From a virus, in IMG/VR virus record IMGVR_UViG_3300020404_001964, positions 62,001 to 126,000 of that record: a DNA stretch of 64,000 nt, one strand, 5' to 3'. Under the pieces are notes generated by a model, which saw nothing but the letters and a program-made list of their open reading frames with translations, ran no database searches and was not told the DNA's origin. Below are positions 6,806 to 63,086 of the stretch, one piece after another (position 1 is the stretch's first letter; each line of letters begins with the position of its first letter). The translations under genes and the position numbers were made by a program.

Positions 6806-9800
6806 CTAGTTTAATATGAGGTTGTAAACCACGTTGAGATCTTGAGCAATTTCGTCTGTTACTGTGACTGATTGTACACCAATTGAAGAAACCCAACCAT
6901 CAACTGCTCCAGCATACACTTCTAAAAGACCACTGTCTGAGTTCCACCATATTGCTCCTAATCTTGGAGTTGTGGCATCTCTTTGTACACCTGTTCCAAA
7001 TGGTCCTACATAACCATTTGTTGAGTCAAATGTTACTGTTCTATTTTGTTTTACACCTGTACCAGTAAAAGTGATATCTGCGTCTACCACACTGTTTTCA
7101 ATAACACCGCCAGATACTGATAGATTAGCAGTGTCTAGTAAAACTTTACCTGTGCCATTTGCTGTAAATCCTGCTTGAGGATTTGAAGCAGTACCCACTG
7201 TAACTGTGTTGCCATCTATAGCAAATTGATCCTGACTTGAAAACCTATTAACAATTAAATTTCCAGCACCATCTATTTCACCAATAGAAGTGTTATCTGC
7301 GTAAAAAGTAAATTTATTATTGCTTAAATCTATGTAAGTGTCTCGGTCACCATCTTTGATTCCATTTAGTGCTATTTTACCTGTTGAAAATAATTCAAAT
7401 TCATTTATACTTGAATCAAATCTTACAGCATTTCCTTGATTAGGATTTTGTGCTGACGTGCCTGATGGTAGCAATATATGACTTGTTGTGTCTATAATTG
7501 TGCTTGTTGCTCCACCACTAAATGCTACATCTCCTTGTTCTGAAGTTACTGTTGTTTTAAAACCAATATCTTCTAAATTAACTTTACCTGTGCCATTTGC
7601 TCTTAATTCTAATTGTGAATTTGTGTCTGTAGTTTGTATTATGTTGTTATGAATATCAATGTTATCTAATGCGATTCTTGATGAATTAGTTGATTTCCAA
7701 TTCTTTGTTTGTGAACCAATGTTGCTTTGAGTGTTGTTCGTTGGTAATAAATCTTGTTCAAACTCCATAGCAAAATCAACAGTGTCACCTGCTTCATTTC
7801 CAAAATTTATTCCTGATCCGCCAATTGTAGCATTACCTGTAACATCTACATTAGGCATTAAAACATTTGAATTTAAATTTATATTATTTGATCCAACAGC
7901 ACTTATTGTAAATCCATTGTTTAAAGTTTGAATTTTATTATCTTTAATTCTAAAATTAGGTACATCTATTTTAGTAGCATCAACAAGAGTTTGTTTACCT
8001 TGTACACCAATTGTTAATGTTGAAGCACCAAGGTCACCTTCATTTACTGCTATTGATGTTGTACCTTTTGCTAGGTCCACAATAAAATTATCACCAACTC
8101 TAAAATCTCCGCCTTGGTCTTGACTAACAAAATGAACTTTAGCATTATTTGTTGTTACAACTTCATTTGCTTGATCAATGCTGTCTACATCATTTTCTAC
8201 ATTTTTTCCTGCACCAACATAAGCAAAGTTATGACTTATCAAATATGCTAAACAACCATTACCGTCTGCTACAACACCTTGATTACCATAAACTGTGGCA
8301 CTAGCAATTACTCTTGCTTCGTTCATTGTGCCTTCTGTTACAGCATTGGCAGTAGCACTTTTGAATGTGTGTGCTGATGTGTTGCTGGATATACCAACAT
8401 TACAAGTAATAGACGTTGCGGTTGTGTCTGTAATTGTAATCTTTTTTCCTGAATAAGGATCTGTTGCTCTTGGGTAAGTGTGATCTGTTTGATGATTGTC
8501 CATAGCACACGTGAAAGTCAAACTGTTATTTGCGATAGTGATTGTTTCACCAACTCTCATCGAGTGATTGCCAACGGTCAAACTCATTACACCAGTCGCA
8601 GGATTATAACTTCCTCCTGTTGGCGTGTATTGATTTAACGAGTGTTCTAAATACAAACCTCTGTTTGCGAAGTACGTAAAGCAATCTATAAATTCTATTC
8701 TTGATCCATTTTTAACTGTAACAGCATCTGCGCCTGGAGTGATAAATGTTACACCATTGAAAAGCATACTTGCTCTTGGAGATGCTGTATCTAAAACATT
8801 TCCATCTACTAAAGCACCTCTACCTGCGTCACCTGAATCAAATCCTCTTGGGTCAGTGGCTGTACGATTGTCGCCTTGAGTAACAACTGAAACGTTTTGT
8901 ATATAAGGTGACTTGGTAACTATACCGGCGTTAGGAGCAAATCTAAATCCATAACCTCTGTCTAGACTAGCACTATAATGGAAATTTTTAATTGTTAAAT
9001 CAGTTACAGAAGAACCATCATTCATTAAAAATGCATCTTGATATCTTCCTGGAACATTTGGTTTAATTGTTACTGAACGGATACCTGCACCTTTTACTGT
9101 TACGTTTGCTGGTACTTCTAAAGGAAATTGTTCTATATAAGTTCCTGGTAAAATATGTAATTGATGTGGTCCTGCTGTGCTTTCTTCAATGTATTGAAGT
9201 GCATGACGTATTGTTCCAAATGCGAAGTTAGGGTGATTACCTGCTAGGTTATCAGTTCCATTTGTACTTACATACCATTTGTTTTCAATACCTAAGTTTA
9301 CTCTTACACCTGCTAAAGAAATAGTATTATCAACAACAATATCATTTAAACCAGTCATGGAACCAACATGAACATCGCCCCAACGTTGTGAAGTTGAACC
9401 AATATTATAAGTGCCTGTGACATCAGGAATTAAATCTGATTCTATATCGCCTTTGAAACTTAAAGTATCTTCTGGACCATCACCACCTATAAAAATATTT
9501 CCGTCAAAAGAAATATCTCCAGTAGCATGAATACTTCCTGTTGTATTAAGGTCTGATGGAATTATTACTTTACCTGTTCCCGGTCCTGGTGCAATTTCAA
9601 TATTTTGACCGTTGTATGCTCTTATACCACTGTTTGTAAATGCTAAATTTCCTGTACGTAATTCAGTCATTTGGAATTTTGTAGTGGCATTCATATTGAT
9701 TGGACCAGTAAATGTTGAGAATGTACTGGTTAAACCATCAATTTCTAAGTTTCCAAATGATGCGGAGTTTGTGGCAATTAAATCGCCTGTGTATCTAGCA

Positions 9801-12771: not shown

Positions 12772-12778
12772 TATTTAT
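12772..12778 (-). promoter_or_regulatory. T4-type late promoter motif ATAAATA
   Basis: The minus-strand context CGATAAATACC overlaps the end of the 90-aa gene. It lies 107 bases before the start of the 152-residue structural protein. The leader in between (12666-12771) contains a CCGG-ATAGAAC-CCGG inverted repeat. Confidence 0.5.
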
Positions 12779-13047
12779 CGTTTGCTGAGTGATGCCAATA
12801 GTTCTACTTTTGAGAATTTTTTTGCTAGATTTATTGCTTCTAACAGCACTTTATTGGCTTCTTCTAGGTATCTGTCTTTTTTGGTTCTACGGTAATCAAC
12901 TAAAATATTAGTGTATTCATCATACATTTTATTCATGGAGTTTTCCAGTTTCTTTATGTCATTGATGAATATACCATGATTTTTCTTCCATATTTGAAGT
13001 CTATCCATGTATTCTTTAAATTCTATCAGTATCTTTTCGTGTTCCAT
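12775..13047 (-). CDS. Hypothetical helical protein of the hemB cassette
   Basis: This 90-residue protein is mostly alpha-helical by composition, with long charged amphipathic stretches (EFKEYMDRLQIWKKNHG, IKKLENSMNKMYDEY, RYLEEANKVLLEAINLAKKF). A short coiled coil is likely. Its ATG overlaps the stop of the HemB-like gene as TAATG, so the two are translationally coupled. No domain is recognised. Small helical proteins at this length can be adaptors, but nothing in the sequence shows a partner. Confidence 0.55.
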   Translation of the reverse strand: MEHEKILIEFKEYMDRLQIWKKNHGIFINDIKKLENSMNKMYDEYTNILVDYRRTKKDRYLEEANKVLLEAINLAKKFSKVELLASLSKR

Positions 13048-13847
13048 TAAATTTTCCCAATTATATCTCTTGCTCCGTATGTGACTAAAAATTTAGCACC
13101 TGCTTTGCGATACACTTTAGCAATTTCTATTTGATGCTCTACAGTGGGCAATCCTAGATATTCATCACTCACTTGATACAATCCTACTGGATTATATGTA
13201 CTGATGGATATCATGCCTAAATCATTCAAACTGTGCTGTGCTGGTTTAAGTAGGAGATAATCTGCTTTTTGACTTCTAAATTTATTTGCTGTGGCAATCA
13301 TTCCTGAATCACCATTGATAGGCAACTGATATGTTCTTTCAGTTGTTGGTGTGCTGTCTGCTAAATTTCTAAATGAACTGTAAAACACACTTCTATATTT
13401 TACATACGCCATTACTTCACAGTCGGTTTCTGCTTTTAAATTCTGCACTGTGTTGTCTCCCATGTCTGATGGAGCCAATATGTCTGCACCTGCTGATTCT
13501 AATTTCTTACCCAAGTTGATTAACAGTGCTTCACTGGTGTCTGGTTTGTCCATCACTCTACAATGACCATCTGGCAAAGTAGAACACAAACAAACATCTA
13601 CAATCAATTGTATTTTTGGAAATTGTTTTTTAATTTTGGCTACCATCTCTGCTTGGTAGTTCCAATCAGGAGTCCATGTTTTTTCTTCTGGTTTAATAAA
13701 CAGTAAGAAACTGTCTACACCTTTGTCTATGTCTTTTTGAATTACATCAAAGATAAAAGTTTGTGACCAACTACTATTGGCTACGCCTAATTCAGCCGTT
13801 TCTGTTCTACCTGATTGGTTCAAAAACAATGGCTGAATTAGGTCCAT
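13047..13847 (-). CDS. hemB: HemB-like porphobilinogen synthase (delta-aminolevulinate dehydratase)
   Basis: This 266-residue homologue belongs to the family that joins two 5-aminolevulinate molecules into porphobilinogen, an early step of tetrapyrrole synthesis. Family motifs are present in order: DVCLCSTLPDGHC at 84-96 (Cys86, Cys88, Cys96 of a zinc-type site); GADILAPSDMGD at 120-131; VMAYVKYRSVFYSSFR at 145-160 with Schiff-base candidate Lys150; RTYQLPIN at 171-178; ADYLLLKPA at 195-203 with the second active-site Lys201; YQVSDEY at 224-230; and VTYGARD at 255-261. The family arm of about 30 N-terminal residues, used in octamer assembly, is missing; the protein begins at DLIQPLF. The gene lies 5 bases behind the lipoprotein gene, under a sigma70-type promoter. 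It is an unusual gene for a T4-like phage. Confidence 0.85.
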   Translation of the reverse strand: MDLIQPLFLNQSGRTETAELGVANSSWSQTFIFDVIQKDIDKGVDSFLLFIKPEEKTWTPDWNYQAEMVAKIKKQFPKIQLIVDVCLCSTLPDGHCRVMDKPDTSEALLINLGKKLESAGADILAPSDMGDNTVQNLKAETDCEVMAYVKYRSVFYSSFRNLADSTPTTERTYQLPINGDSGMIATANKFRSQKADYLLLKPAQHSLNDLGMISISTYNPVGLYQVSDEYLGLPTVEHQIEIAKVYRKAGAKFLVTYGARDIIGKI

Positions 13848-14087: not shown

Positions 14088-14116
14088 ATTATAACAGATT
14101 TTGGTTAATCTGTCAA
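14088..14116 (-). promoter_or_regulatory. Consensus sigma70-type promoter of the lipoprotein-hemB cassette
   Basis: The minus strand reads TTGACA (14111-14116), exactly 17 bases, then TATAAT (14088-14093). This is a perfect match to the bacterial housekeeping consensus. It lies about 30 bases before the lipoprotein ATG and immediately behind the gp23 terminator. It implies transcription by host polymerase early in infection, unlike the surrounding late genes. Confidence 0.9.
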
Positions 14117-14134: not shown

Positions 14135-14160
14135 TAAAAAAGGGGGCCGAAGCCCCCTTC
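14135..14160 (-). terminator. Intrinsic terminator of the gp23 operon
   Basis: On the minus strand a GGGGGC-TTCG-GCCCCC hairpin (14142-14157) with a UUCG tetraloop is followed directly by TTTTTT. It lies 23 bases past the stop of the major capsid gene. This is the clearest rho-independent terminator in the window, and it separates the head operon from the hemB cassette. Confidence 0.95.
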
Positions 14161-14182: not shown

Positions 14183-15361
14183 TTAACTGAAAGATGTGTT
14201 AGACACACCAATAGTCTCAACGTAATCTGCCGCGTTACCTAGTGATGAAGCAGTATTGTTTAACTCAACATAACCATATCTAGTCATGAAAGAAACAACT
14301 GGTTCAAACGTACCTGGATCAAGTACAACACCAGAAGACATTAACGGAATGTATGGGCAATAGAATGCCGCCGCATCTGCTTCTGATGAACCTTTGTAAC
14401 CTACTAATACGTCTGTATCATCAGCCGCATATGTATCTACGTAGATTTTCATCGCACTGTTTAAAGTTCCAACCATTTTTTGGTTAGTTGGTGCTTCAAA
14501 CGTTCCTTCAGTTGTTCTTGCGAACGCTGAAGTTGTTGCTGACTGAAGTACTGTTAATGCTAATGGTGAAACCACTGCAAAATTACCAGCACCACGTCTT
14601 GTGTTTTGTGCGATTTTGTTCGCCGCTCTGTTTATAACAACAGCCAAAGCCGCGTGTTCATCACCTACGAATGTTGCCGTACCTGATACTGCCGCTTGGT
14701 TGTATGTTCCAGATGATTGAGCACCTGCTAAAGTTCTTAATGAAGTGATGATCTCTTGGTCGATTTCAGCAGTAATTTCTTGTGCTAATGCCGCCATGAT
14801 TTCAGCCTCTACATCAATACCTTGTTGTGCTTGAGCATCTTGAGCAGATTCAAATGTCCATCTTGCTTGTAACTTACGTGATTTTGCTTCAACCGTTTGT
14901 TTCAAGATTTGGATTGACATTGCTCTACCACCAGTACCCTCTTTAGCCGCTGTCGCGTCACCAAGACCACCTGTGCCGTCACCTGAATAGGCTTGACCTA
15001 TTTTGAACGGAGATAGAGCCTCATCGCCTGCTGTTACATCATTTGCTGTACCAGTCGCGTTGTTTGTCTCTGCGTATCTTACTCTTAATGTGTGGATTTG
15101 ACCAACTGGGCCAGTCATTGGTTGAACTCCAACCAATTCGTTAGCGATCACAGTAGGCATAACCCTTCTGATCACCGGTAGGATCACTCTGTTTAAAGTA
15201 GCAACGTTACCAGCCGATGTAGCACCTGCTGTTGCCGCCTCAGCCAAATACGCTTTCGTATTTTCTAAAGTAGCCGCCATAACTGCTTTTTTATTTCCAG
15301 TTAAGCCTTCTAATAACGCACTCTTTGTGTCCTGCCAGCGAGTTTCTGTTAGTTCTGACAT
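14183..15361 (-). CDS. 23: Major capsid protein gp23
   Basis: The start is placed at 15361, where AAGGAG precedes MSELTETRWQ. The longer frame back to 15409 would run into the end of gene 22 without a better ribosome site. The protein is 392 residues. Typical T4-family segments are visible: TLNRVILPVIRRVMPTVIAN and LVGVQPMTGPVGQIHTLRVR near residues 53-95, AKSRKLQARWTFESAQDAQA, and the C-terminal FEPVVSFMTRYGYVELN. A T4-type prohead-protease site (L-x-E) occurs at Leu39-Ala40-Glu41, so the mature protein may begin at Ala42. It forms the hexameric shell. It follows gp22 and gp21 in canonical order and ends in a strong terminator. Confidence 0.97.
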   Translation of the reverse strand: MSELTETRWQDTKSALLEGLTGNKKAVMAATLENTKAYLAEAATAGATSAGNVATLNRVILPVIRRVMPTVIANELVGVQPMTGPVGQIHTLRVRYAETNNATGTANDVTAGDEALSPFKIGQAYSGDGTGGLGDATAAKEGTGGRAMSIQILKQTVEAKSRKLQARWTFESAQDAQAQQGIDVEAEIMAALAQEITAEIDQEIITSLRTLAGAQSSGTYNQAAVSGTATFVGDEHAALAVVINRAANKIAQNTRRGAGNFAVVSPLALTVLQSATTSAFARTTEGTFEAPTNQKMVGTLNSAMKIYVDTYAADDTDVLVGYKGSSEADAAAFYCPYIPLMSSGVVLDPGTFEPVVSFMTRYGYVELNNTASSLGNAADYVETIGVSNTSFS

Positions 15362-24285: not shown

Positions 24286-24855
24286 ATGCAAGTCTACACA
24301 CAAATTGTACGACCCCAGGAGTTGGATGAGGATGACCTGTGGATTCCTTGTCTTACCACAGCCACCGTTAAACACTCACCTGCTGAAAAACAACCTTTGA
24401 TTGTCACACACATCGAAGCAATCAATCATTACGAACACAGTCTTACAAAACTGTTGGAACAGAAGGTGTTTGCTGTGGGGTCAAAGACATATGACCGACT
24501 TGTAGAGGTTGGCTTCCACCAAGATAATATTCATTGGCGACACAGAGCGGACGAGTTAAGATTGCGTGCCAAAAACATAGGCCCAATGACTTGGCTCCAC
24601 GGAGACAAGTACGCCAGAGATTTTGGCGCCATACCAGAAGTCACAGCAATTCAAACCTACGAATCAAAACCAGATGCCACAGCCATCAAACAGATATTGA
24701 AACTGGAACCAGATGTAATTCATGTGTATTCAGATGCTGTATTGAAAGAGTTGGAGATTAGAAACTGGAGTCACACCAAGTTGAAACACGTTGCGTCCGC
24801 GGAACCTGATAATTCTGTTTGGTTAGATTGTGAATCGTTTGATCCTAATGTTTAA
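24286..24855 (+). CDS. HemD-like (uroporphyrinogen-III synthase-like) protein
   Basis: This 189-residue protein has the layout of the HemD family, whose members cyclise hydroxymethylbilane to uroporphyrinogen III. It opens with a TQIVRPQEL strand-turn (cf. ITRP..). VFAVGSKTYDRLVEVGF follows at 61-77 (cf. AVG..TA..L...G). Next come MTWLHGDKYARDF at 101-113 (cf. L..RG...R), VTAIQTYESKP at 119-129 (cf. V.VY.T.P) and DVIHVYSDAVLKELE at 143-157 (cf. D.V.F.S...V). HemD sequences diverge strongly, so this is a fold-pattern call. The protein is shorter than the usual 240-260 residues. Together with the HemB-like gene at 13047 it makes two tetrapyrrole-type genes in the window. Its last stop base starts a hairpin terminator candidate. 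Confidence 0.55.
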   Translation: MQVYTQIVRPQELDEDDLWIPCLTTATVKHSPAEKQPLIVTHIEAINHYEHSLTKLLEQKVFAVGSKTYDRLVEVGFHQDNIHWRHRADELRLRAKNIGPMTWLHGDKYARDFGAIPEVTAIQTYESKPDATAIKQILKLEPDVIHVYSDAVLKELEIRNWSHTKLKHVASAEPDNSVWLDCESFDPNV

Positions 24856-28732: not shown

Positions 28733-29584
28733 CTACTTTTTTGTTCGTTTACTGACTTTTGTTTTTGGAGCCGATTTTGTTGCAGGTTTTGGCGCACTGC
28801 TATCACCGGAAGTTTGTCTGGTCATACTCGGCATCATATTGTTAAGTTCTAAAATATCATCTCTAATGTTTTGATTTCTTTTTTCAATATTAATAATTCT
28901 CACAAATGAATTAGTCACTGCCGCTGTGTAATAAGCAAACGGATTGTTAGATTTACTTTCATCAAATTGTAAACCAATTTGTGCTAATTGTAAAATGGCC
29001 TGACCCTGCATTTCATCATTGTAAGTATAACCTCTCACGTTACCTCTTGTACCGTATCTTTCACACAATTTCATCCACATCTTTGCTAATTCGTTTGTGG
29101 CTCTGCCGGCATCTTTATTAAATTTACCGTTTTCCATTCCACCATCCCAATGACTTTTACCCACACAAACCAAGTTGCCTTTTTTATCATATTTCCAATG
29201 CTGGAAAGGAGGAAAGTTAACTTTTACTTTGCCATCAGCAACTGTTTTTGGATTCTTTTTTCTGCCAGGTTCGTCTGGGATATGCTCAAAAGTCATCACT
29301 CTAAAAACTACATCATCTTTATCTATTGACCTATAATCTATTTCGCAGTCACTTAATTTTGTTTTTGGGTCTACTTTTTTACGTTGTTCATACGTTTGTT
29401 GCGTAAGTTTTTTGGCTTTATTTCTTTTGGCTTGGGCCACAGTTCGTATGTTTATGGCATCCACATTGTTCACAATCAAATTGTATGTGCTGTAGGCTTC
29501 ATCCACAAAACTACAAAAAGTGCTTTTAGACTTGTGAATTTCGGCTAATAGGTCTCTGTTGTTAAGATAATTGACTTTTTTCAT
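28733..29584 (-). CDS. 55: Late-transcription sigma factor gp55
   Basis: This 283-residue protein directs host RNA polymerase to late promoters. The sigma region-2-like core is at about 180-245: GYTYNDEMQGQAILQLAQIG, FDESKSNNPFAYYTAAVTNS, FVRIINIEKRNQNIRDDIL. These match T4 gp55 and distant sigma70 region 2. It is about 100 residues longer than T4 gp55 (185). The extra sequence is N-terminal (basic, KRNKAKKLTQQTYEQRKK; a HIPDEPGRKKNPKTV loop) and a short basic Ser/Pro/Lys-rich tail. It stands first in the 55-47-46 group, as in T4, with a perfect sigma70 promoter. The ATAAATA motifs in this window are its expected targets. Confidence 0.9.
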   Translation of the reverse strand: MKKVNYLNNRDLLAEIHKSKSTFCSFVDEAYSTYNLIVNNVDAINIRTVAQAKRNKAKKLTQQTYEQRKKVDPKTKLSDCEIDYRSIDKDDVVFRVMTFEHIPDEPGRKKNPKTVADGKVKVNFPPFQHWKYDKKGNLVCVGKSHWDGGMENGKFNKDAGRATNELAKMWMKLCERYGTRGNVRGYTYNDEMQGQAILQLAQIGLQFDESKSNNPFAYYTAAVTNSFVRIINIEKRNQNIRDDILELNNMMPSMTRQTSGDSSAPKPATKSAPKTKVSKRTKK

Positions 29585-29610: not shown

Positions 29611-29639
29611 ATTATAAACTACTCAGTTAATTTTGTCAA
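29611..29639 (-). promoter_or_regulatory. Perfect sigma70-type promoter of gp55
   Basis: The minus strand reads TTGACA (29634-29639), 17 bases, TATAAT (29611-29616), about 27 bases before the gp55 ATG. It shares base 29639 with the late-type ATAAATA motif that faces the other way. Confidence 0.9.
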
Positions 29640-38600: not shown

Positions 38601-39136
38601 TAAAATACAAAATATTATTTGGGTCACAAGCAGATACAAGTTTACAAGCAACATTTAAAATTGTTAAAAACACAGAGCAAGTCACAAACGATAGTGATGT
38701 GAAAAGTAGAATTATAACAGCAATCAATCAATTCTTTGCTTTAGAAAATTGGGAATTCGGAGATACTTTCTACTTTACAGAATTAAGCACATATGTGATG
38801 AATGAATTAGCACCTGACCTAGCAACTTTCGTTATTGTACCTAAAGAAGGTTCTAAAGCATTTGGTAGTTTATTTGAAGTAAAATCTGAAAATGATGAAA
38901 TTTTTATCAGCGGAGCAAAAGTTTCTGATGTTGAAATTATAGATGCTGTAACAGCCTCAAAATTAAAAGCAGATGGTAACATAACAACAAGTTCATCAAC
39001 AACCAGCACATTAAGTGGCACATTGCCTACTAGTTCAAGTTCAAGTCCAAGTTACAGCGGAAGTTCAAGTTCAAGTTCCAGTGGAAGTTCAAGTGGAAGT
39101 TCAAGCGGAGGCTCTAGTGGAGGAAGTGGATATTAA
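35612..39136 (+). CDS. 6: Baseplate wedge protein gp6, extended
   Basis: The 1174-residue product has a clear gp6 N-terminus: YDFDTIRRTMIQYIRQNYPE near residues 31-50, SSEYLALIDLVAYLGQNLAF near 58-77, and ETADRRESILRLARLISYNP near 89-108. A later VNQLEPLLSKQQTRNFYIEK region also fits. gp6 dimers form the wedge ring that opens on contraction. T4 gp6 has 660 residues, so about 500 extra residues are present, mainly beta-rich central and C-terminal sections. The last 48 residues (about 1127-1174) are an almost pure Ser/Gly low-complexity tail. The stop overlaps the start of the giant gene (TAATG), consistent with coupled wedge production. Confidence 0.92.
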   Translation: MSSTDRQNRLLLAEDWKRVYQSYKNAEFKSYDFDTIRRTMIQYIRQNYPEDFNDYIESSEYLALIDLVAYLGQNLAFRTDLNARENFLETADRRESILRLARLISYNPTRNQAANGLLKIVGISTTENIVDSNNLNLSGQTVTWNDSGNTNWYEQFIKILNASLAENEKFGNPVKSENIDAIPTNQYRINANSLDVPVYAFDKTVNGQNLPFEIVSTSFNDGAIVEEAPLTGRKFSMLYRDDGKGASSNNTGFFAHFRQGVLDNGDFNIDVPSNNQSVAIESSNINNTDVWLYTLDTDTGLEDTLWTKVDSVTGNNVIYNSTEKNIRNIYTVLSGADDSISLKFADGIFGNLPQGNFKVYYRRSKNQNIRITPADMQNIQVDVQYVSSNNQVEVLTFTLGLQYTVDNATSSETNDNIRLNAPATYYTQNRMITGEDYNVAPLGTNQEIIKVKATNRTASGISRYYDLIDATGKYSNTNVFGADGVIYKEETENLDTFSFATQTDIEGVIVNQLEPLLSKQQTRNFYIEKFPKVILTDFVPVWQQVTNATNESTGKFIDAVNVIDYQVGSFTASQLKYIEPGAMVKFVAPTGFHFMPDNSLMAGPGDHPGAKDYIWTSVVSVFNDGVSNTSTGEGAVKFNDVIPTSAVASEILPKFSKQFSDDVKTLIIDQAFAYNNFGIRYDVQTRKWNVIDENNLNVFGTFSVGKTGDESNQQLDASWLIKCVNNGATYTITFRGLRYVFESKKEVRFFYDSADRNFNAKTGATIQDKISVLSINTKPDSNNAFNNDINFAISTEYRTQNGYVDSAKIELTQFDSDQDGIVDNPNAFDLVVDPSTNASTKYIFQKLVKNTDGTERYQYCDATEEFIYTRQTSVGAIGDYPNGSIVYLIDSDSFKQVNTTTNTTTDVTNYVAHVGRDKVKFQYVHTVDGNTRLDPSSSNIIDMYILTRTYDINFRLWLAGVTATKPLLPSNDSLYTNFNTPLAKIKSISDTIVYHPVKYKILFGSQADTSLQATFKIVKNTEQVTNDSDVKSRIITAINQFFALENWEFGDTFYFTELSTYVMNELAPDLATFVIVPKEGSKAFGSLFEVKSENDEIFISGAKVSDVEIIDAVTASKLKADGNITTSSSTTSTLSGTLPTSSSSSPSYSGSSSSSSSGSSSGSSSGGSSGGSGY
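38990..39133 (+). repeat. Ser/Gly low-complexity coding repeat at the gp6 C-terminus
   Basis: Tandem AGTTCAAGT-type units encode a run of about 48 Ser, Gly and Thr residues. Such repeats can slip in length between strains and probably form a flexible linker. Confidence 0.8.
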
Positions 39137-42100
39137 TGGCATACGACAACAATCAGAAAGATTTCAGTTTGCCTTCAGGCAAAGACAGCGGTAAAAGAGA
39201 ATCTTCAGAATTTTTACCTAAATATTTTAGAACACCAGTCAACCAAAAATTTCTACACAGCACACTTGATCAATTAATATCTCAAGGAACATTAGAAAAA
39301 TTAAATGCTTATTATGGACGTAAGATTACGGACGCCTACAAAGCATCTGATTTGTATGTGCCTGAAGTTGATGCAGACAGAGAAAATTATAAGTTTGAAC
39401 CTAGTGTTGTACAACAAGATGATTTAGGTAATGTAAATTTCTATTCTGATTATATAGATTTTGTTAACCAAGTTAAAAATTTTAACGGTGATGTAACCAA
39501 TCACAGTGTATTGAACGCCCAAGAATATTATGCTTGGTCTCCTAGAATTGATTGGGACAAATTTGTTAATTACAGAGAATATTTTTGGATGCCATACGGT
39601 GCTTCTGCTGTTACAATCACAGGACAACAAAGAAATGTTGTTAGCACATACACAGTAACAAAGTCTGATCAAACAGACAACTACGCATACATTTTCACGC
39701 CAGATGGATTAACAGCAAATCCAACACTTAAATTATACAAAGGCCAAACATACAAGTTTGATATTAATGCTGAAGGTTTACCTTTTGTTATTAGAACACA
39801 AAGAATATTAGACGCATCATATAATGTTACTGACGGAATAGATGTACAAAGTGTAGAAAAAGGAATAATGACTTTTCAAGTCAAAGATTCAGCACCTGAA
39901 AAACTTTACTATGGAAGTGATAATGATATTAATGCTTGGGGACTGATACAAATATATGCTATTGAAGAAAACTCTAGCATTGATGTTGCTAATGAAATAA
40001 TTGGCAAAAAAAATTACACAACGGCTGACGGCGTAGAACTTTCTAACGGTATGAAAATAAATTTTGCCGGAACAGTGACACCTAGTCAGTATGCGGAAAA
40101 AGACTATTTTGTTGAAGGAGTTGGCGAAGCAATTCAATTAATAGATACACAAGAACTAGAAGTTAAAAGTGCTTTTACAGATGTTACTCCGATTCCATTT
40201 GATTCACAAAACTTTGATACAGTAGGATTTGGTACTGCTACTTCTTATGCTGTTGATAAAGACTACATTGTAATCAATAGATCATCTCCAGATAGAAACC
40301 CATGGGCAAGACACAACAGATGGATTCATAAATCTGTAATAGAAGCAAGTGCTAAAGCAAATGGTCAAACAGCCAATATTGATCAAGCCACTAGAGCAAG
40401 ACGTCCTATTATTGAATTTGAAGCAGGTATAAAATTATATAACTTTGGTTTTAAAGCAAAAACAAACATTGACTTAATTGACACAGTAACCACTGATGCG
40501 ATGAGTGACGTAGAAGGTTCACAAGGTTTTTACATTGATGGCATTGCTTTGACTAACGGAATGAATGTCATCTTTTCTGCTGATACAGATCCATTAGTAA
40601 AAGACAAAATTTTTGAAGTTAAATTTATTGATTTTACAGAAGGAACTACCACTACTAAACAAATCAGTTTGGTTGAAGTTACAGGTGGTTCACCAGTTGA
40701 AGGTGATACAGTTTTAACCACAGACGGAAAAAAGAACCAAGGTAAATGGTATTGGTACACAGGCACTACTTGGAAAGTTGGGCAAGAAAAAACAGCAGTC
40801 AACCAGACACCTTTGTTTGATTTATTTGACGACAATGGAGTAAGTTTCACTGATTCAATATTGTATCCTAATAGTTCATTTTTAGGAAATAAAATTTTCA
40901 CTTATGTTGAAGGCACGGGAACAGCAGACACAGAATTAGGTTTTCCTTTAACATATTCAAATGTTGAAAATATAGGTGATATAGTATTTGATTTTAATCT
41001 ATTAAATGAAAATTACACATATCAGTCACAAAATTTAAGTGGAACTCTTAATTCAGAAACAGCATTTTTAAAAAAATATGATGCCACAGGAAATTTTAAA
41101 ACTGTAAACGGTTGGACAAAAGCACCAACAGACAGTTTTCAAAAAGTTAATAGACAGTATGTTGCTACATCAAGTCTAATGAATAACTTCGCTATTGATG
41201 TATACAATCAAAGTGGCGACTTAAATGATTTAACAGCAAATGTTTTTGTAAACAATGTTAAAAAGATTGAAAATACAGATTGGTCTTTTCTAAGAATAGA
41301 TGGCATTGCTTATATTAATTTTACAAAAGACTTAAATGTTGATGATGTTGTTGTAATTAGAACAAACAGTGCTACACCAAAAAATGCTAATGGTCATTAT
41401 GAATTCCCAACAAATTTACAGTCTAATCCATTAAATGCTAAAACAACAAAATTTACTGTGGGTCAAGTTACGGACCATGTCAAATCAATAACAAATGAAC
41501 TTGTAGATATTGAAGGTGTAACTCCAGGAGTAAGCAACCTAAGAGATTTTCCAAATGCTTCAGCATATGGTAGAAAGTTTTTACAACACAGTGGCCCTAT
41601 GCCTTTGGCATCATTCTTGTTAGATAACAGACAAGTTGATTTAATTAATTCTATTTCTACTAGCCAGTATGATTATTTTAAATTCAAAAGAACATTTATT
41701 AAAGCAATGGATGACTTGGGTTTTGATGGAACGCCTAGCCAGACTGTTGATAAAATTTTAAGTAAAATTAATAAAGATAATAACAACAATTTACCTTACT
41801 TCAAAACAGACATGATGGGTATAGGTGCTTTTAAAACAACTACACATACTATATTAGATTTAGATAATAAATTTTTTGCTTTATCATCTAGTTTTAATTT
41901 AACAACATTGTCTACAAAAGCAGTGTACGTGTACCACAATGGTACGCAACTAACACATGATATTGATTATGTGTTTTCAGATGGCTTTGTACAAATTACA
42001 AAAACTGTGGCACTTGATGACACAATAGTAATAAACGAATTTGAAACAACAAATGGAACACATATTCCTGCTACTCCTACAAAACTAGGATTGTATCCGA

Positions 42101-45100
42101 AATATGCTCCTAAGAAATATTTAGATACAACAGCAGTAACTCCATTAAATGTGCTTCAAGGTCATGACGGTAGTGTTATGGTTGCTTTTAACGATTTCAG
42201 AGATGATGTAATCTTAGAAATGGAAAAAAGAATTTTTAACAATATTAAATGTACATACGATGAAGAATTATTTGAAATTAAATCATTTATTCCTAGAGCG
42301 TACTCAAAAAATAAATTCACTTTAGAATCAATCAACAAAACTTTATTAGGAGATTTCAACGAGTGGTTAACATTTATAGGTAACGAAGATTACACAGCAA
42401 ACACTTATTGGGCAGAAGATAACAGTCTTACTTGGAATTACAGCAATATGGTGTCTCCTAATGACACAAATATATTAGGTTTCTGGAGAGGTGTGTATAA
42501 TCATGCTTATGATACTGACAGACCAAATATAACTCCATGGGAGATGTTGGGTTACACAATTGAACCTAGTTGGTGGTCATCAGTGTATGGGCCAGCACCT
42601 TACACAAAAGACAATTTAATTTTATGGCAAGACCTTGAAAAAGGTATTGTGAGAGAGCCTAATAAAAAAATTGTTGTAAAAGAAAACTATAAAAGACCAG
42701 GATTAGCAAGTCATATACCAGTAGACAGCGAAGGAAACATAAGAAGTCCATTTGACAGTGCTTATGCCAGAGGGGCAGTTTTACAACTGACAAAACAAAA
42801 ATTTAAATTTGGGGATCACTCTCCAATAGAGAATACATGGAGAAGAAGTGTTCATTATCCATTTGCTCTTTTAAAAAGTTACATTTTACACCAACCTTGT
42901 AAAGCAATAGGCATAGGTTTAGATACAAGTCGTGTAGGCAGAAATGCTAGTGGTCAAATTGTATACAATTCAGCCACTGCTGTAAGACCTACTGATATTG
43001 TGTGGCCAAGCAGTATAAATGACGAAACAGAAATTTTAACATCAGGACTTTTAAATTACGTTTATGAAACAGTGGAAGATTCACAAACTACAAATTATAC
43101 AGATTACAAAGAACAATTTGCTGGTATTCAAACACAGGTTGGTTTTAAAATAAGAGGCTTCAGTAATAAAGACAAATTTAAATTATTATTGGATAGCAAA
43201 ACACCTTTAAATTCATCAACGTTATTTGTACCAGAAGAAAACTACAAACTGATTTACAATGTTTCTACGCCAGTAGATATTTTAACATACAGTGGTTTAA
43301 TCATAGAAAAACAGCAAACAGGTTTTGCTATCAAAGGTTATGACAAAAATGATCCATACATTAGATATCATATGCCATTTGAACAAGCCAGTGATCCAAC
43401 AGTAAATGTAGGTGGAGTTAGTGCCGCATTTGTTAAATGGGACGCAAACAAAAGATATGATAGCGGTTCTTATGTAAAATATGAAGATAATTTTTATGCT
43501 ACAGATGAAACACACTTATCAACTGAAACATTTGACAGTTCTAAATTTATAAAAATAGTTGAACTTCCTACTGAAGGTGGAGCATCAGCAATTTTAAGAA
43601 AAAGTTTTGTAACAGATAAAGTTATTTCTGCTCCTTATGGCACAGTAATTGATAATATTCAAACAGTAGTGGATATAATTTTAGGTTACGAATCATATCT
43701 AAAATCACAAGGTTTTGAATTTGACCAATTTGATTCACAAAGTTTATTGGTTGCCAATTGGCAATTAAGTGCTAAAGAGTTTTTATTTTGGACAACACAA
43801 AACTGGGATGAAGGCGCTGTAATAAGTTTAAGTCCAGCCAGCAAAAAATTAGTTGTAAATTCAAAATTTGCTACAACAGACAATGTGATAGAAAACAGTT
43901 ACTCTTACGGAGTATTGAAAGAAGACGGAAACACTTTAGATAGAATCAATTTAAGAATTGTACGTAAGTCAAATACATTTGAATTGTTAACAAAAAATAC
44001 AATCAATGGAATATATTTTGCTAAAGTGCCGCTAGTTCAAAAAGAACACGTTTGTTTACTTGACAATACAACAGCATTTAGTGATTTAATTTACGACCCA
44101 GCAAGTGGTTACAAACAAGATAGAATTAAAATGTTGGGTTACCTAACAGAGTGGGATGGTAGTTTAAACATTCCAGGTTTTGTTTTTGATGAAGCAAAAG
44201 TAAAATCTTGGCAACCATACACAGACTACGCAATGAGTGATGTAGTAAAACACAAACAGTTTTATTATACAGCAAATTCAAAATTAAAAGGCACTGCTGA
44301 ATTTGATAGTAATAATTGGCGTAAATTAGATGGCAAGCCAGATAGCAATCTGCTTTCTAACTTTGATTATCAAACAAATCAATTTGGCGACTTCTATGAT
44401 TTAGACACAGATAATTTTGATAGACAACAACAAAAACTTGCTCAACATTTAATTGGTTATCAACCAAGACAGTATTTGAGCAATATAATAAACGACGATG
44501 TAAGTCAGTATAAATTTTATCAAGGATTTATAAGAGAAAAAGGCACAGCAAATGCTTTGAACAAATTGTTTGATGCACTAGCAAGTGCTGATAAAGAAAG
44601 TTTAGACTTTTTTGAAGAGTGGGCAATCCGTAAAGGTCAATATGGTGCTGTAGATACTTTTGACGAAATAGAATACAAACTGGATGAATCGAAAGTAAGA
44701 TTAAATCCACAACCTATTCTATTAACTGATGATCAACCTGTTGCCACAGATTTAGTTTATAGAATACAATCAGGACAGACATATATTGCTCCAAATGGTT
44801 ACACACATAAACCGTTTCCTGTTATGTATGATCAAAACACATATATCAAAACTGCAGGTCCTGTACATCCAATTGATATTACTTTAACTTTAGCAGATTA
44901 TGATGACTTATTAACTACGTCAAGTCTATCAACATTACAGGAAAATCAATATGTATGGATTGGAAACAATCAAGGAACGTGGAGTGTCTTGAAATATACT
45001 AACACAGATCAACAGATTACATCTGTGATAAAAGATGGTAGCACAATTACTGTAAACACACTTACAACTGCTAATATGCAGGCAGGTGAAATTTTTGTTG

Positions 45101-48100
45101 TAAATGCGAATGGAACAGATTATGTATTAAAATGTTCTTCTGTGAATTTAACATCTATTGTATGTGAAGACAAAGAAGGATTTGTTTCAATTGATCCTGC
45201 TACGGGCATTATTAAAAGATTTACTGAATCTAGATTAAGTTCTATAAATGATATTAACACAACTATAAATGTCAAAGGATTGAAGGACAACGAAAAATTC
45301 TGGATTGATCAATCAGATGATGGCACATGGAAAATTGTAAACAACAAATTTGTTTTCAAGAAACACAATGAATTAAGCACAACTACAGAATCTGGAGATT
45401 CAAGTTTTGGAACAGTAATTGCGGCTAACAAACAAAACACAACAGTGTTGGTAAGCCAACCAACAGATGGTGATGGCAAGATATATGTTTTCAACAGAGG
45501 TTTTGAAAGTGGCACATTAGTTTTAAAACAAATTATAGAAGCACCAACTACTGATCCATTAATAAACTTAGATATATTTGGACCTAACAGTAGTTTTGGT
45601 AAAGGAGTAGATATTTCGCCAGATGGAAAATTTGTGTTAGTAGGTGCTCCTACTGCCGACAATCTTCAAACAGAATACAAAGGCGTATTCAATCCAACTT
45701 CAAACTACAATGTTGGAAATATTGTTCAATACAAACAACAATTATGGAGAGCAGTAAATCAAATAGAAGGGGCAGTAGCACAAGACTTATTTTCAACATT
45801 TGATTCAAGTGCATTTTATAAAGAAAATGTAGGTTTTCAAACAACTAATCTTTTAATTGGTGACAGTATTTTCTTGAACAAGACAACTGATCACTTGCTA
45901 ATTAGAGCATCTGCTGATCAATATTCAGCAACTAAAATAGGCGACAGATTAATTTTAAATTATTTAGATTTCAGTTCAGAATATCCTTTAGATAGAAGCA
46001 ATTATTCTAAAGCACCTAATCAACCGTTTGGAGGAGTTTCAAGTCCAACTATAAAAGACAATGTCTTTAGTGGAACAGACGTACCAATTCAAGAAAAAAT
46101 TGATGAAATATTAGAAATTTCTAACACACTTGTAGACCCAGCAGTTGGACAAACTGTAATTACAGGCACAGCAGAAGGAACAGTTGCGTACATAAGAAAA
46201 GTTGCGTCTAAGTCATTGATATACTTAAAAGATGTGAGCGGTGTATTTGAAGCAAGTGCAACATTATTTTTAGATTTACAACCAGTGGGAGATTACACAA
46301 GAGTAAATTCAGAAGATTACAACTACTTAGGCGGATGGTGGAAAGTAGCCGTTGGTGCCAATGTAAGCACAAACGCAGGCTCCGACATATCAACAAGTGT
46401 TGTTGTAAGAGACATAAAAGTACAAAATGAAGTTAGAGACACCAATTCATTTTTCAGTTCTTTGGAACAACCTATAGTGCCAATCACTCCACAAACACCT
46501 TTAGTGAAAGCACAATTTGGTGTTGGTTCTCATTACGAAACTTACAAAATTAATCCTGCCAACAATACGTGGGAAGTAAGTGGTCAAAATATTTTAAGCA
46601 ACAAATGGTTTGTGAGAACAGGTTATGACATTGCTCATGACAGTACTTTAAATACAAGTAATTCAAGTAATAACATAAGTGTATATTTCAACAATGTTGA
46701 TTCGAGTGCTTATGATTTTTCTGACCTAAGTATTAGTGCTTCTGACACAAATGGTTTGAAAGAAGTTGTAGACGTTTGGGAAGGATATGTTGATGTAGAT
46801 TCGCAACCAGATAATAATGCTAATTATTATTTTCCAGAAGCAGGCGTACACCAAATATACGATCCAAGCACACAGGCACAGGCTGACGTAACTTTTGTAC
46901 AATTTATTGCTTTAGAAAAAATAAGAATTTACTTTAACAATTCAAACGGCAAACAATTTAGTTTAGGTTCTGATGCTGGAGTATCATCTACATTAACAAG
47001 ACTAGGTGGTGGCGTAAACAGAAGCCTAGGATCAATTGAGCAAACAGTTCAATCAGGTCCAGCAGATGGAGATATTTTAGTTTTTAATCATACACAAAAC
47101 ATTTCAGTAACTGGAAATCAAAATTTTTACGCAGTAAATGATATTGAATATTGGATTTGGGACGAGTTTGAAAATGTTCCAGGTATAAGTCAAAGTGCAA
47201 ATATTCCTAGCAGTCAAAATAAAGACTATGTACAAGTTTACAATATTCCAGTTGGCGAAGGTGTACAAAGCGGATTAACTAATCAAGGTGCATTTTTAGT
47301 TTATAAGAAAAATACTGATGGAATATTTGAATACAATTCAGCATACACAGTACCAGACACACAAAGTGGTTTAAGATTAGGAAACAGAATACAAATACGT
47401 GAAGTGGCAGATACAACTGTGGCATTTATAGGTGCTGAAGGAGATGGATCAAGTAATTTACCAGGTAAAGTTTACTTTATAAAATATAGTGCTACTAAAA
47501 ATTGGTGGTTAGGCATAGATGAAAAATACATGGGTCTATTTGATGATCAAGCAGATTACATTAAAGATGAATTAGTTGTATACAATAATCAATTGTACAA
47601 AGCCAGCACAAACATAAGTGCAGGTGCATTTCAAACAAGTTTATGGCAACTACAAGACACACATACAGATGTATTAGGATATGTGCCTAACGATAGTGGC
47701 ATAGAATTACAAGGCGACTCAACATTAGACCAAAGCAATTTAATACGTTTTGCTAAAACATTTGATGTTGATACAAATGGTGTAAATCTAGTTGTTACAA
47801 ATGAATATGGCGATGATAGACAAAATGTCGTTGTGTACAGAAACACAGATGGGCATTACACTTACAAACAGACTATTACACCATTAGATGATTCTACACC
47901 AATTATAAACTTTGGTGCTGATATCAGCATATCTGGAGACGGTGAATTAATTGCTATTGGATCACCACTGAAAGATTTGACAGAAATTGACATGGGTGTT
48001 GTCAATGTATACAAAAAAGTAAACAATGACTCTGGACAATATGTATTAAATCAAACATTAGTAAGTCCAAGCATGGAAACTTCAGAACAGTTTGGGTCAA

Positions 48101-51100
48101 CATTATCATTTAGCGGTGATACTTTAGCAGTAACATCATTTAAAGGCGATCAACAAGTTGATGACGGTTCGACAGTGTTTGATACTAGACATGATGTTGG
48201 TTCAGTACACATATTTGAAAAATTTGAAAACACTTTATTGTACGCAGAAAAATTCAGTTATGATGAAACATTCACAGAGTTTGGAACAAACTTACTAGTA
48301 AACAATAATCACGTTTACATTGGATTACCTAAATTACAATTGGCTGGAAAAGAAAAGGGCACAGTCGTTAACTTTAGAAAATCTCCAGAACAAAACAACT
48401 GGACAAGTTTACATCAAAGTGTTGGAGGAGTAGCACAACCAGATTTATCTAAAGTACAAGGAATATTCTTATACAGTAAATCAAAAAACAAATTATTAAC
48501 TAGATTAGATTTTGTTGATCCAATAACTGGAAAAATTCCTGGACCAGCAGAAGCGGAAATTAGTTACAAAACAAACTATGACCCAGCAGTATACAACAAT
48601 GATTCAGCAGTAGGAACAGTAGATAAAACAAATCACTGGGATGAAAGTCAAGTTGGTAAATTATGGTGGAATATAAGCAAAGCGAAATACTACTATCCTT
48701 ATTTGGACAATATTATTTTTAACAATTCATATTGGAACAAATTATTTGTTGGTGCTAGTATAGATGTACATGAATGGAGTGAATCTTCATACACACCTAC
48801 ACAATACAATGCTATTAGTCAATCAGAAGATGGCTCTGCACTGGGTATAACGGGAACAGTAGAAAACACAACCAACTTTGTTACGAAAAGAATTTATGAC
48901 AAAGTTGCAGGCAAGTTTAATAATAGATATTATTACTGGGTAAAAAGTAAAACAACTACTCCAGAAATAGAAAATAGATTATTAAGTGCGAATGCAGTTG
49001 AAAAATTGATCAAAGATCCTCGTGGACAAGGATACAAATACGTTTCAGTATTCGGCGAGAACAAATTTGCTATTGTAAATTGCGACTCTTTTATTGAAGC
49101 AAATGATACTGTGATTAATTTTAGAATAAACAATGTAGATTCTAACAATAACGTTCACAAAGAATATGCTTTAATAACAGAAGGCAGTGCTACAAGCACA
49201 TTACCGAAAGATATAGAAACTGTATGGTTCAACAGTTTAATTGGATATGATGCTCAGTCTAATCAGATCCCTGATCCAAATTTAAGTGACAAATTAAAAT
49301 ATGGAACACTTCAAAACCCAAGACAAAGTTGGTTTGCAGACAAACAAGAAGCATTAAAACAAGTAATTGAAAGAGTTAACACTTCATTGAAAACAAATTT
49401 AATTGTTGATGAAGTAGATTTAAGCAATTTAATACAATCTGATCCTGCTCCATTAATTAATTCAGGTCTGTTTGATACTACAATCGATACAGAACAAGAA
49501 TTAGATTTTGTAGGAATTGGTTCAGTCAAACCTGCGTTTCTAAATATAACAATTACAGATGGAAAAATTTCAAATGTAGTTGTCACAGATGCAGGTAAAG
49601 GATATAAATCTATTCCAACTGTTAAAATTAAAAGTCTTACAGGTGAAGGTGCATTAATAGGCTTAACAATTGATACAAATGGATCAATTAACAGTGCTAA
49701 AGTATTGAAATCAGGGAAAAATTACAGCAACAATGCTACTATTGAAGTACGTCCATTTAGTGTGTTAGTAAACAATGACAGCACAGTCGATGGTAAATGG
49801 GCAATATATGGATATGTTACAGGTGATGGTTGGCAAAAAACTAAAATACAATCATTCAATGTGAACTTGTATTGGGAGTATGCTGATTGGTATGCTACAA
49901 ACTATAATTCATACACTGCAATAGACCATGTGATATCTCAAAGTTATCTAATTAACTCTTTAGAAGACAGCATAGGACAAATTGTTAAAATTGAAAACAT
50001 TGGTTCAGGCGGATGGTTACTACTTGAGAAAATTGATGATCAAGCAGATGTTGATTACACTGTAAATTACAAAACTATTGGTAGACAAAATGGAACGATA
50101 CAGTTTTCAGATAAACTTTACGTGTACAGTGGAAATGTTGGATTTGATTCCAACAGTTTTGACATTCAATTGTATGATAGACAGCCTATACAAGAAACAA
50201 GAGTTGTATTAGAAACAATTAGAGACAAAATATTTGTTGAAGAATTAGCAATAGAATATAATAAACTTTATTTCTCTAGTATTCAATATGCTTTATCTGA
50301 AAATAAACTTAATGACTTTGTGTTCAAAACAAGTTTTGTTAAGGCACAACACAATGTTGGTCAATTAGAACAAAAAATTACATTTAAAAATGACAATCTA
50401 TCTAATTATGAAGATTATGTTCAAGAAATTAAACCATACAAATCTAAAATTAGAGAGTATGTAAGTTCATATGAAAAATTAGAACCAACAAATTCTGTAA
50501 TAACTGATTTTGACTATCCACCAAGATATGTTAATGGAATAATTACACCATCAAAAGTTACTATTAACAATGATCAACTTGTAGGTGCTGATGGCATTAC
50601 AACTTATCCAGATAAAAATTGGAAAGATAACATTGGATTCAAAATTACTGGCATTAATATAGCAGATGGTGGCACAGCATACACAAATCCACCTGCTGTT
50701 GAAATAACAGGCGGTGGTGGTTCAGGTGCTAAAGCCACAGCATACATTAAAAATGGAGTTGTATATAGAATTAATGTTACAGCAGGCGGTTCAGGTTACA
50801 TATCATCACCAACAATTATTTTAAGTGGTTCTACAACTGGTGTACAAGCAAAAGCAAGTGCAGTGTTAGGCGAAAGTTTAACAAAAACAAGTCATATAGG
50901 AATCAAATTTGACAGAAATACTGGTGATTCTTTTATTACAAACCTTAACAGAACAGAAACGTTTACAGGCAACAACAGCCAAATTAAATTTAAATTAAAA
51001 TGGCCTATGGATGTAAGAACAAACACAATCAGTATACTTGTGGCAGGCAAAAAACAATTGAAAAGCACATTTACATATGGCAATGAAACAGATAACACAA

Positions 51101-61121: not shown

Positions 61122-61457
61122 ATGGATGAATCCTTATCAAAATCTTTGGAATACGCAGAGCGTCTAAGAACGTTCAATAATCAATTAAAATTGTTGAAAG
61201 AGAAATGTCTTGAAAACAATATCTATTATACCGAAGGACATCAATTCACAATAGACCTTGCTCTTATAAATTACTGTCTCACGTATATCAATATCAAAAA
61301 AACAAATGAAGCAATATTTCTAGATGATTACAAACAACCTGTCAAAATTACAGATATTAAATCCTTTCATAGCGACATTACTGATTTGTATCAACGCAAT
61401 CTAAATCAATACCTTGTGGAATACAATCAATTAGTGAAAGACAAAGGTGAGATTTAA
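61122..61457 (+). CDS. Hypothetical protein, first gene of the glycosyltransferase cassette
   Basis: This 111-residue protein is helical and charged, with SKSLEYAERLRTFNNQLKLL near the start, a less polar INYCLTYINIKKTNEAIFLD segment, and DLYQRNLNQYLVEYNQLVKD near the end. No domain is recognised. It has no ribosome site of note and lies immediately after the sigma70-type promoter, so it may be translated from a near-leaderless message. It stops just before the first glycosyltransferase-like gene and probably shares its message. Confidence 0.6.
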   Translation: MDESLSKSLEYAERLRTFNNQLKLLKEKCLENNIYYTEGHQFTIDLALINYCLTYINIKKTNEAIFLDDYKQPVKITDIKSFHSDITDLYQRNLNQYLVEYNQLVKDKGEI

Positions 61458-61459
61458 TC

Positions 61460-62272
61460 ATGACCAAAGGGGTTTTGCTTTTTGCTCATAACAATAGCAC
61501 TGTGGATTATGTCAAACAGGCTAATTTTTGTGCAGGTCAGATTAAAAAACATCTTGATTTGCCAGTGTGTTTGATTACATCGGACAAATTCAACGAAGAT
61601 CATAATAATTTTAATCACGTCATTGTAGTAGAAAAACCAAACACAGATCAAACAAAAAGATTTTACAATGTTACAAACAGTTATGAGGATACATGGAACA
61701 ATACTTCAAGACCAGATGCTTATTCTTTAACTCCGTACGATGAAACCATTGTAATGGATACTGACTATATTGTGGCAAACAGCAACCTTAACAAAGTGTT
61801 TGAAAGCAAAGAAGATTTTTTAATCAACTACAAAGCACAACACGTAGACTTTGAATCTAGATACACAGAAGAAATGAAATATGTTAGTGATACAGGTATT
61901 GAAATGTGCTGGGCAACTGTATTTTATTTTAAGAAAACTGAAAGAACTAGAATTTTGTTTGATTTAATCAATCATATCAAAAAAGAATGGCAATTTTATA
62001 GATTCAAATATCAAATTGAAAATACAATTTATAGAAATGATTTTGCTTTTGCCATAGCAATTCACATGATTAATGATTTTGCTAAAACAAGTTGGCCCAA
62101 GCAATTGCCTAGCAAGTTGTTTTATACAACGGACAAAGATAGTGTAGACTCTTATCTTGATAATAAATGGAATTTTACATTAGAGCGAGGAGCAAAATGT
62201 CAGATTAAAGATATGAATATACACATAATGAACAAAATAGGATTGAATAAAATTATAGATCAATATGAATAG
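61460..62272 (+). CDS. Glycosyltransferase-like protein (GT-A type) 1
   Basis: This 270-residue protein has a Rossmann-like start (GVLLFAHNNSTVDYVKQANF, LPVCLITSD) and a DxD-type motif in DETIVMDTDYIV at about 95-106. These features suggest a GT-A fold nucleotide-sugar transferase (GT8-like). A later SDTGIEMCWATVFYFKKTER stretch matches the WATVFYF/YCGFHYF position of its downstream paralogue. Targets could be host envelope glycans, phage proteins or modified DNA; the sequence does not decide. It overlaps the next gene by 8 bases. Confidence 0.7.
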   Translation: MTKGVLLFAHNNSTVDYVKQANFCAGQIKKHLDLPVCLITSDKFNEDHNNFNHVIVVEKPNTDQTKRFYNVTNSYEDTWNNTSRPDAYSLTPYDETIVMDTDYIVANSNLNKVFESKEDFLINYKAQHVDFESRYTEEMKYVSDTGIEMCWATVFYFKKTERTRILFDLINHIKKEWQFYRFKYQIENTIYRNDFAFAIAIHMINDFAKTSWPKQLPSKLFYTTDKDSVDSYLDNKWNFTLERGAKCQIKDMNIHIMNKIGLNKIIDQYE

Positions 62273-63086
62273 AGGTTTTATATTATTTGTACAGCAGAAT
62301 GAAACTTGTGATTATTTAAAACAAGCAGTTGCCTGTAGTTTAAGCATAAAGAAATTTATGCCCAAAGAACAAATATGTTTAATGACAGATATCATTGTTC
62401 CTGAAAAATACAAGAAACATTTTGATCATATTCAAGACATACCAGGAGATGATCTCGCAGTTGACAGCGATTGGAAAGTTAATAACAGATGTAAAATTTA
62501 TAATAGCAGTCCATTTGATGAATCTATTGTGCTAGATGTGGATATGTTATTGTTAGAGAATATAGAGCATTGGTGGAAACAATTAAGCAATTATGAATTG
62601 TTTTACACAAACAAAGTTAAAACCTATAGAGATGAATGGGTAACAAATGATTATTATAGAAAAGTATTTGTGGACAATGACTTGCCAAATGTGTATTGTG
62701 GATTTCATTATTTTAAAAAATGTAAAAACAATGATGTGTTTTTTAAATTGTTAACAGATATTGTAGTGAACTATGAACAATACAGCAAACGTTTTACAAA
62801 AAATCGCACTCAATCTTGGTGCAGTATGGATGTTGCCACAGCAATAGCAATAAAATTATTAGGTATTCAGCATAAAGTTTTCAGCACACAGTCTAATTTG
62901 ACATTTACACATATGAAACCTAGAATACAAAACTATCAAAGTCAATTGAAATTATGGACGGAACAGATAGATTATAATCTTACACCACAAAATGAATTAT
63001 TTGTGGGAAACTTTAAACAAAAAGGAATATTTCATTATGTTGAGGATAATTTTTTAACAGATAAGATGTTGGAGCAACTACAATGA
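62265..63086 (+). CDS. Glycosyltransferase-like protein (GT-A type) 2
   Basis: This 273-residue protein is a paralogue of the preceding gene: FILFVQQNETCDYLKQAVAC start, QICLMTD, the DxD-type DESIVLDVDMLLL at about 84-96, then VYCGFHYFKKCKNNDVFFKL and WCSMDVATAIAIKLLG (cf. RNDFAFAIAIHMIN). Both proteins keep the same order of motifs, which points to duplication followed by divergence. The overlapping starts and stops show one operon. Confidence 0.7.
   Translation: MNRGFILFVQQNETCDYLKQAVACSLSIKKFMPKEQICLMTDIIVPEKYKKHFDHIQDIPGDDLAVDSDWKVNNRCKIYNSSPFDESIVLDVDMLLLENIEHWWKQLSNYELFYTNKVKTYRDEWVTNDYYRKVFVDNDLPNVYCGFHYFKKCKNNDVFFKLLTDIVVNYEQYSKRFTKNRTQSWCSMDVATAIAIKLLGIQHKVFSTQSNLTFTHMKPRIQNYQSQLKLWTEQIDYNLTPQNELFVGNFKQKGIFHYVEDNFLTDKMLEQLQ

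Follow-up and report, generated by a model that had tools for sequence, protein, structure and literature searches.

A minimal porphobilinogen synthase homologue of T4-like phages, linked to a putative second heme-pathway gene

Introduction

Genes of tetrapyrrole metabolism have previously been described in aquatic phages. Viral AlaS occurs in such phages together with heme oxygenase and bilin reductases (PcyA/PcyX), and the phage AlaS is active, complementing an E. coli 5-ALA auxotroph (PMC11480375). In addition, a pelagimyophage ecotype carries porphobilinogen deaminase and coproporphyrinogen oxidase (PMC7029224), and phage genes for vitamin B12, e.g., cobS, are also known (PMC13390420). The HemB (porphobilinogen synthase, PBGS) step is named in the main text of neither of the first two studies, and we found no report of a phage HemB/PBGS in the open-access literature.

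Here we characterize a hemB-like gene of a T4-like phage, which, going by the literature open to search, adds the PBGS step, in an unusual form, to the phage tetrapyrrole genes already known. The stretch of DNA that was analyzed, hereafter the window, comprises 64,000 nucleotides (bases 62001-126000) of the IMG/VR virus record IMGVR_UViG_3300020404_001964, a T4-like sequence of 134,280 bases. Judged by its sequence, the phage HemB is most likely an active PBGS that sustains heme supply.

Results

A hemB-like gene lies among T4-like structural genes

The gene under study and the capsid gene upstream of it are positioned in the window as follows:

13047-13847, minus strand: hemB-like gene for a 266-aa minimal porphobilinogen synthase homologue (ALAD family) with an E. 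coli-type Cys3 zinc site, assigned by Pfam, AlphaFold (AF2), Foldseek, residue comparison and dN/dS
14183-15361, minus strand: gp23 major capsid protein gene (PF07068), upstream of the hemB cassette

The hemB ORF starts with ATG and encodes 266 aa without internal stops. The original prediction, made from the letters alone, had called its product a HemB homologue, and a profile search, set beforehand as the test of this assignment, placed the protein inside the ALAD family (Pfam PF00490, E = 4e-39, 135.1 bits against a cut-off of 24.6, residues 2-262). A sequence search of the PDB returned PBGS/ALAD chains only, the best being that of E. coli (1b4e, 1.1e-17), and no PHROG family matched. The product scored below the cut-off of the NCBIfam PBGS equivalog PRK09283 (119 vs 297 bits), as did the operon-borne HemB of an alphaproteobacterium, L050 (278.5 bits); E. 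coli HemB scored 476.8. The gene is under purifying selection, with a pairwise dN/dS of 0.13-0.26 between its relatives and the window copy, and its product is the one ALAD match in the whole 134,280-base record.

Searches against Pfam and PHROG identified the neighbors of hemB as gp23, the gp21 protease, the gp20 portal and long fibre-like or structural ORFs, in agreement with the T4-like head and fibre surroundings first proposed. Of note, gp23 is 67-69% identical to that of two isolate jumbo phages, Vibrio phage 2.275.O and PA5oct, and, with a gp23 of this jumbo-phage kind, the 134-kb record may represent only part of a larger genome. The structural genes also include a single ORF of 4890 aa (window 39136-53808), which is unusually large for a phage protein.

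Toward both ends of the genome, a group scan (L023, L024, L027 and window 61122-63679) found radical SAM (SPASM), glycosyltransferase, epimerase, carbamoyltransferase and 2OG-Fe(II) oxygenase families. The same genome encodes, outside the window, an alternative oxidase (G000:C1:129913-130524, i.e., L027:4913-5524, plus strand), a heme-free terminal oxidase whose ORF was chosen by motif and whose E-value (Pfam AOX, 1.4e-80) comes from the group scan. Its sole relative in the isolate collection is in Phage C48C1 (55%), and a respiration theme joining alternative oxidase and HemB is possible.

Viral HemBs form one clade next to alphaproteobacterial HemBs

Scans of IMG/VR recovered relatives of the window HemB in about 50 uncultivated viral contigs, 33 of them in what we term clade I (64-100% identity) and 17 in clade II (34-37%). 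No credible HemB was found in isolate phages, where tblastn gave only 9 hits, 24-33% identical. The one region inspected proved to be a bacterial chromosome (ggt, emrB, dadA, sbcC), and most other hits fell in wastewater 'clone NODE' records attributed to phages of Listeria, Salmonella, Staphylococcus or E. coli, which, being short and unannotated, were discounted as phage hemB genes. CAKLQH020000030.1, OR847151.1 and similar hemB-bearing isolate-phage records look like misfiled bacterial contigs.

In a maximum-likelihood tree, which has long branches and whose cellular rows are restricted to those retrieved by a pattern scan, the viral HemBs form one clade (99/95) adjoining the 307-aa HemBs of small-genome Alphaproteobacteria, while 26 other cellular HemBs fall outside the viral and alphaproteobacterial group (split supported at 100/100). 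The 307-aa type is present in about 46 of 120 genomes of the alphaproteobacterial order concerned. Its gene sits in a hemC-hemB-hemE-hemH-hemF cluster (L049-L051), in which hemC and hemF were confirmed and hemE and hemH were identified by eye. SAR11 was considered as the identity of this lineage and rejected, as the 16S sequences of two members showed 2 or more mismatches at every one of the four SAR11 probe sites compared.

The phage HemB keeps the catalytic lysines and zinc cysteines of PBGS and lacks its arm and allosteric glutamate

An AlphaFold (AF2) model built from an alignment of 61 sequences reached a pLDDT of 93.8 and a pTM of 0.93, replacing a run on a shallower input of 13 viral sequences (pLDDT 64). 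The model has the TIM-barrel fold of PBGS, and all 50 PDB matches listed by Foldseek were PBGS/ALAD (E down to 8e-21), with TM values of 0.77-0.92, mostly about 0.9, among these matches. The BFVD viral structures yielded generic barrels only, with no PBGS among the matches listed. In the model, K150 falls in strand 144-151 and K201 closes strand 197-201; the two strands are neighbors in the barrel, and both lysines are predicted to lie at, or close to, their C-terminal ends. The second outcome set beforehand as refuting the assignment, a model with the lysines not in one active site, was not seen in this prediction.

We then aligned 27 distinct viral HemBs (15 of clade I, 12 of clade II) and the divergent sequence of contig L331 with E. 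coli HemB, whose residue numbers and roles we take from established family knowledge, and with HemBs of diverse bacteria. Eleven residues are invariant in the 27 viral HemBs and L331. These include the Schiff-base lysines K150 and K201 (E. coli K195 and K247), in line with the claim that both active-site lysines are intact, and C86, C88 and C96 (E. coli C120, C122 and C130), which make up a Cys-x-Cys...Cys zinc site. The remainder are D84, S127, Y156, R160, Q174 and Y257, equivalent to E. coli D118, S165, Y201, R205, Q220 and Y312, respectively, and S227 (E. coli S273) is retained in all viral sequences but one.

Compared with E. coli HemB (PDB 1b4e), the phage protein thus has the same barrel, lysine pair, Cys3 site and most substrate-binding residues, yet it departs from the canonical enzyme in several respects, beginning with its length (266 vs 324 aa). 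It begins at the first barrel strand and lacks the N-terminal arm of about 25-30 residues, as does every one of the 27 clade I and clade II sequences compared; in PBGS, this arm serves octamer formation. The glutamate of the allosteric Mg site (E. coli E232) is replaced by T186, and the lid loops are shortened. The position of E. coli R216, in the A-side substrate pocket, is occupied by E170, next to which every viral HemB has an arginine (R171). Clade I alone shows a one-residue deletion at E. coli position 193, two positions ahead of catalytic K150. Homology, lysines and genomic context stood as originally described, and what had been overlooked was the loss of the arm and of the Mg site, the replacement of R216 and the clade I deletion, as well as the promoter and cassette, the co-occurring HemD-like gene and the hemF-hemB pair described below.

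Part of this departure is shared with the closest cellular relatives, the alphaproteobacterial HemBs of L049-L051 (39-43% identity), which have the Cys3 zinc site and the GLG and TYGARD motifs in common with it, have likewise lost E232, and, where operon-borne, share the F313 to G change seen in viral HemB. Unlike the phage protein, they keep a short N-terminal extension, R216 and the pre-lysine residue, and they are encoded in a chromosomal heme operon.

Since the equivalog score falls below its cut-off and both the arm and the allosteric site were looked for and are missing, we infer, rather than observe, isofunction with canonical PBGS. Conceivably, the protein is an ALAD-fold Schiff-base enzyme with a changed job, either condensing other aminoketones or binding 5-ALA so as to lower its level or store it. 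The deletion beside the catalytic lysine, the replaced R216, the shortened arm and lid loops and the long branch would all suit such a role, whereas the invariance of every Schiff-base and zinc residue and of most substrate-binding residues, the occurrence of F313 to G in operon-borne alphaproteobacterial HemBs as well, and the linkage of hemB with enzymes of the same pathway (described below) speak against it. We therefore consider a changed job unlikely, and favor PBGS activity.

hemB is linked to a HemD-like gene and, in clade II, to hemF

A second gene of the window bears on the pathway:

24286-24855, plus strand: HemD-like (uroporphyrinogen-III synthase-like) gene, 189 aa, assigned by a sub-threshold Pfam HEM4 match, hhalign and co-occurrence

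Its product matched HEM4 with an E-value of 5e-4 and 19.7 bits, under the cut-off of 27.5. HEM4 was matched by 17 of 17 phage relatives, at best at 1.7e-5 and always sub-threshold, and is the sole Pfam family common to all of them. Aligned by hhalign with cellular HemD, the profile of the phage proteins gave 87.4% (E = 3.7e-6, 136 columns, both halves covered), compared with 6.6% for a control of HemB against HemD. Three of the four HemD columns invariant in the cellular set (G, T, Y) are kept. Unlike cellular HemD, the phage protein measures 189 rather than about 240 aa, with its C-terminal part shortened, and a sequence search of the PDB recovered no match for it. Its gene has a pairwise dN/dS of 0.11-0.18 against the window copy. 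On these sequence comparisons, the product is probably a second heme-pathway protein, a putative HemD.

By contig name, hemB and the HemD-like gene are both present in 16 contigs, and both are absent from 8 gp23 relatives that cover the two sites. This co-occurrence is confined to one phage clade, so part of it could reflect nothing more than common ancestry. No HemC was found in the phage genome. As for the cellular relatives, a Pfam-detectable HemD was present in 0 of 60 genomes of the L049/L050 order, despite the clustered hemC, hemB, hemE, hemH and hemF. HemC of L049 and L050 has a long C-terminal extension, which could hold a very divergent HemD; hhalign gave no support for a relationship between this part of HemC and the phage HemD-like protein (0.6%).

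In clade II contigs L136 and L137, the start of hemB is overlapped by the gene of a HemF (oxygen-dependent coproporphyrinogen oxidase) of 263 aa, whose NCBIfam match has an E-value of 4e-86 and, at 288.6 bits, stays under the cut-off of 297. In L137 (82 kb), the overlapping pair spans 7213-8819, and the contig also encodes ribosomal protein bL12, a ClpP-like protease and a carbamoyltransferase-like protein. In another clade II contig, L146, hemB directly follows a 2OG-Fe(II) oxygenase-like gene, near bL12.

In the pathway, HemF comes later than the point at which siroheme and B12 diverge, and it belongs to heme/protoporphyrin synthesis alone; heme is therefore the likeliest product. The range originally proposed, covering precursors of heme, siroheme, cobalamin or chlorophyll, is narrowed accordingly by the hemF-hemB pair of the sister lineage. 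An active PBGS feeding siroheme or vitamin B12 instead, e.g., for B12-dependent enzymes, would accord with HemB and HemD being common to all tetrapyrroles and with the known phage B12 genes such as cobS. We regard this destination as improbable in view of the HemF pairing, the heme operon in which the nearest cellular homologues sit, and the fact that the scanned phage proteins matched no cobalamin or siroheme family of Pfam.

hemB sits second in a conserved three-gene cassette

Four further features surround hemB in the window:

12775-13047, minus strand: ORF of 90 aa, cassette gene 3, beside hemB in clade I and in L331
13853-14059, minus strand: small lipoprotein-like ORF of 68 aa, cassette gene 1, with a signal peptide and a lipobox-like LFIVSAC
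14088-14116, minus strand: sigma-70 promoter sequence TTGACA-17-TATAAT with TG before the second hexamer, 12/12 matches, upstream of the cassette
14139-14160, minus strand: strong intrinsic terminator GGGGGC-TTCG-GCCCCC with a T run behind it, separating gp23 from the cassette promoter

Five bases separate the lipoprotein-like gene from the hemB start codon, and the hemB stop codon shares one base with the ATG of the 90-aa ORF, which had no match in Pfam or PHROG. Clade I contigs covering the region share the order gp20-gp21-scaffold-gp23-lipoprotein (68 aa)-hemB-small ORF (90 aa)-structural genes. The short contig L331, whose gp23 is 78% identical and whose HemB is only 38% identical, has the same two ORFs flanking hemB in the same place, and thus the three genes behave as one cassette. 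Of 80 gp23 relatives, 44 span the insertion point to the downstream structural genes, and among these hemB was found only in L269, a known member of clade I.

Among the clade I loci examined, those that extend to the promoter sequence conserve 11-12 of its 12 positions; L331 conserves 10. Two perfect TTGACA-17-TATAAT sites occur in the 64-kb window, against 0.28 expected; the second (29611-29639, minus strand) lies upstream of a 283-aa ORF (28733-29584). The terminator is present in most clade I loci, missing from the L134/L041/L042/L020 branch and replaced by a different hairpin in L331. From this conserved arrangement, we predict that host RNA polymerase would transcribe the cassette separately from the capsid gene. 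The T4 late promoter motif TATAAATA was found 0 times in the window against 5.9 expected, so the phage is unlikely to rely on it.

With hemB at the same locus in more than 30 IMG/VR contigs and under purifying selection, the gene bears the mark of a phage tetrapyrrole auxiliary metabolic gene. That it is a bacterial contaminant, as misfiled contigs among the isolate-phage hits are, a misassembly or a decaying passenger can be dismissed almost entirely. The main evidence against it is synteny, with position and cassette shared by those contigs; a dN/dS well below 1, a single ALAD copy in the virus record and the absence of stops add to it.

Discussion

We propose that the phages encode a minimal zinc-type PBGS, which they would have obtained from, or hold in common with, a small-genome alphaproteobacterial lineage. 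It would be expressed from its own host-type sigma-70 promoter, in the lipoprotein-hemB-small ORF cassette and apart from the capsid transcript, and would join two 5-aminolevulinates into porphobilinogen inside the infected cell. Together with the HemD-like protein and with HemC, HemE, HemF and HemH of the host, predicted to be an alphaproteobacterium akin to L049-L051, it would keep heme synthesis, and hence respiration, running. As a whole, we hold this explanation to be reasonably probable. The linkage of a promoter-driven hemB with a second heme-pathway gene suggests that these uncultivated marine viruses of bacteria maintain heme production in infected cells.

More tentatively, the two genes might constitute an 'upper heme' module, consisting of an armless, low-order PBGS devoid of the Mg site and of oligomer switching, a shortened HemD and a host-type promoter for HemB. 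Such a module would bypass host regulation at two trunk steps and send more heme flux through host HemC.

The about 50 contigs, with their linked HemD-like and HemF genes, make phage support of host heme and respiration directly testable. They also offer natural minimal PBGSs devoid of the two features, arm and allosteric site, that govern switching between octamer and hexamer.

Like the tetrapyrrole genes described previously (PMC11480375, PMC7029224), the genes presented here belong to phages and to the same pathway, those earlier genes being from marine or aquatic phages and likewise proposed to keep up heme supply and respiration. Unlike them, the present hemB belongs to a T4-like lineage, is paired with a HemD-like gene and is preceded by a sigma-70 promoter sequence of its own.
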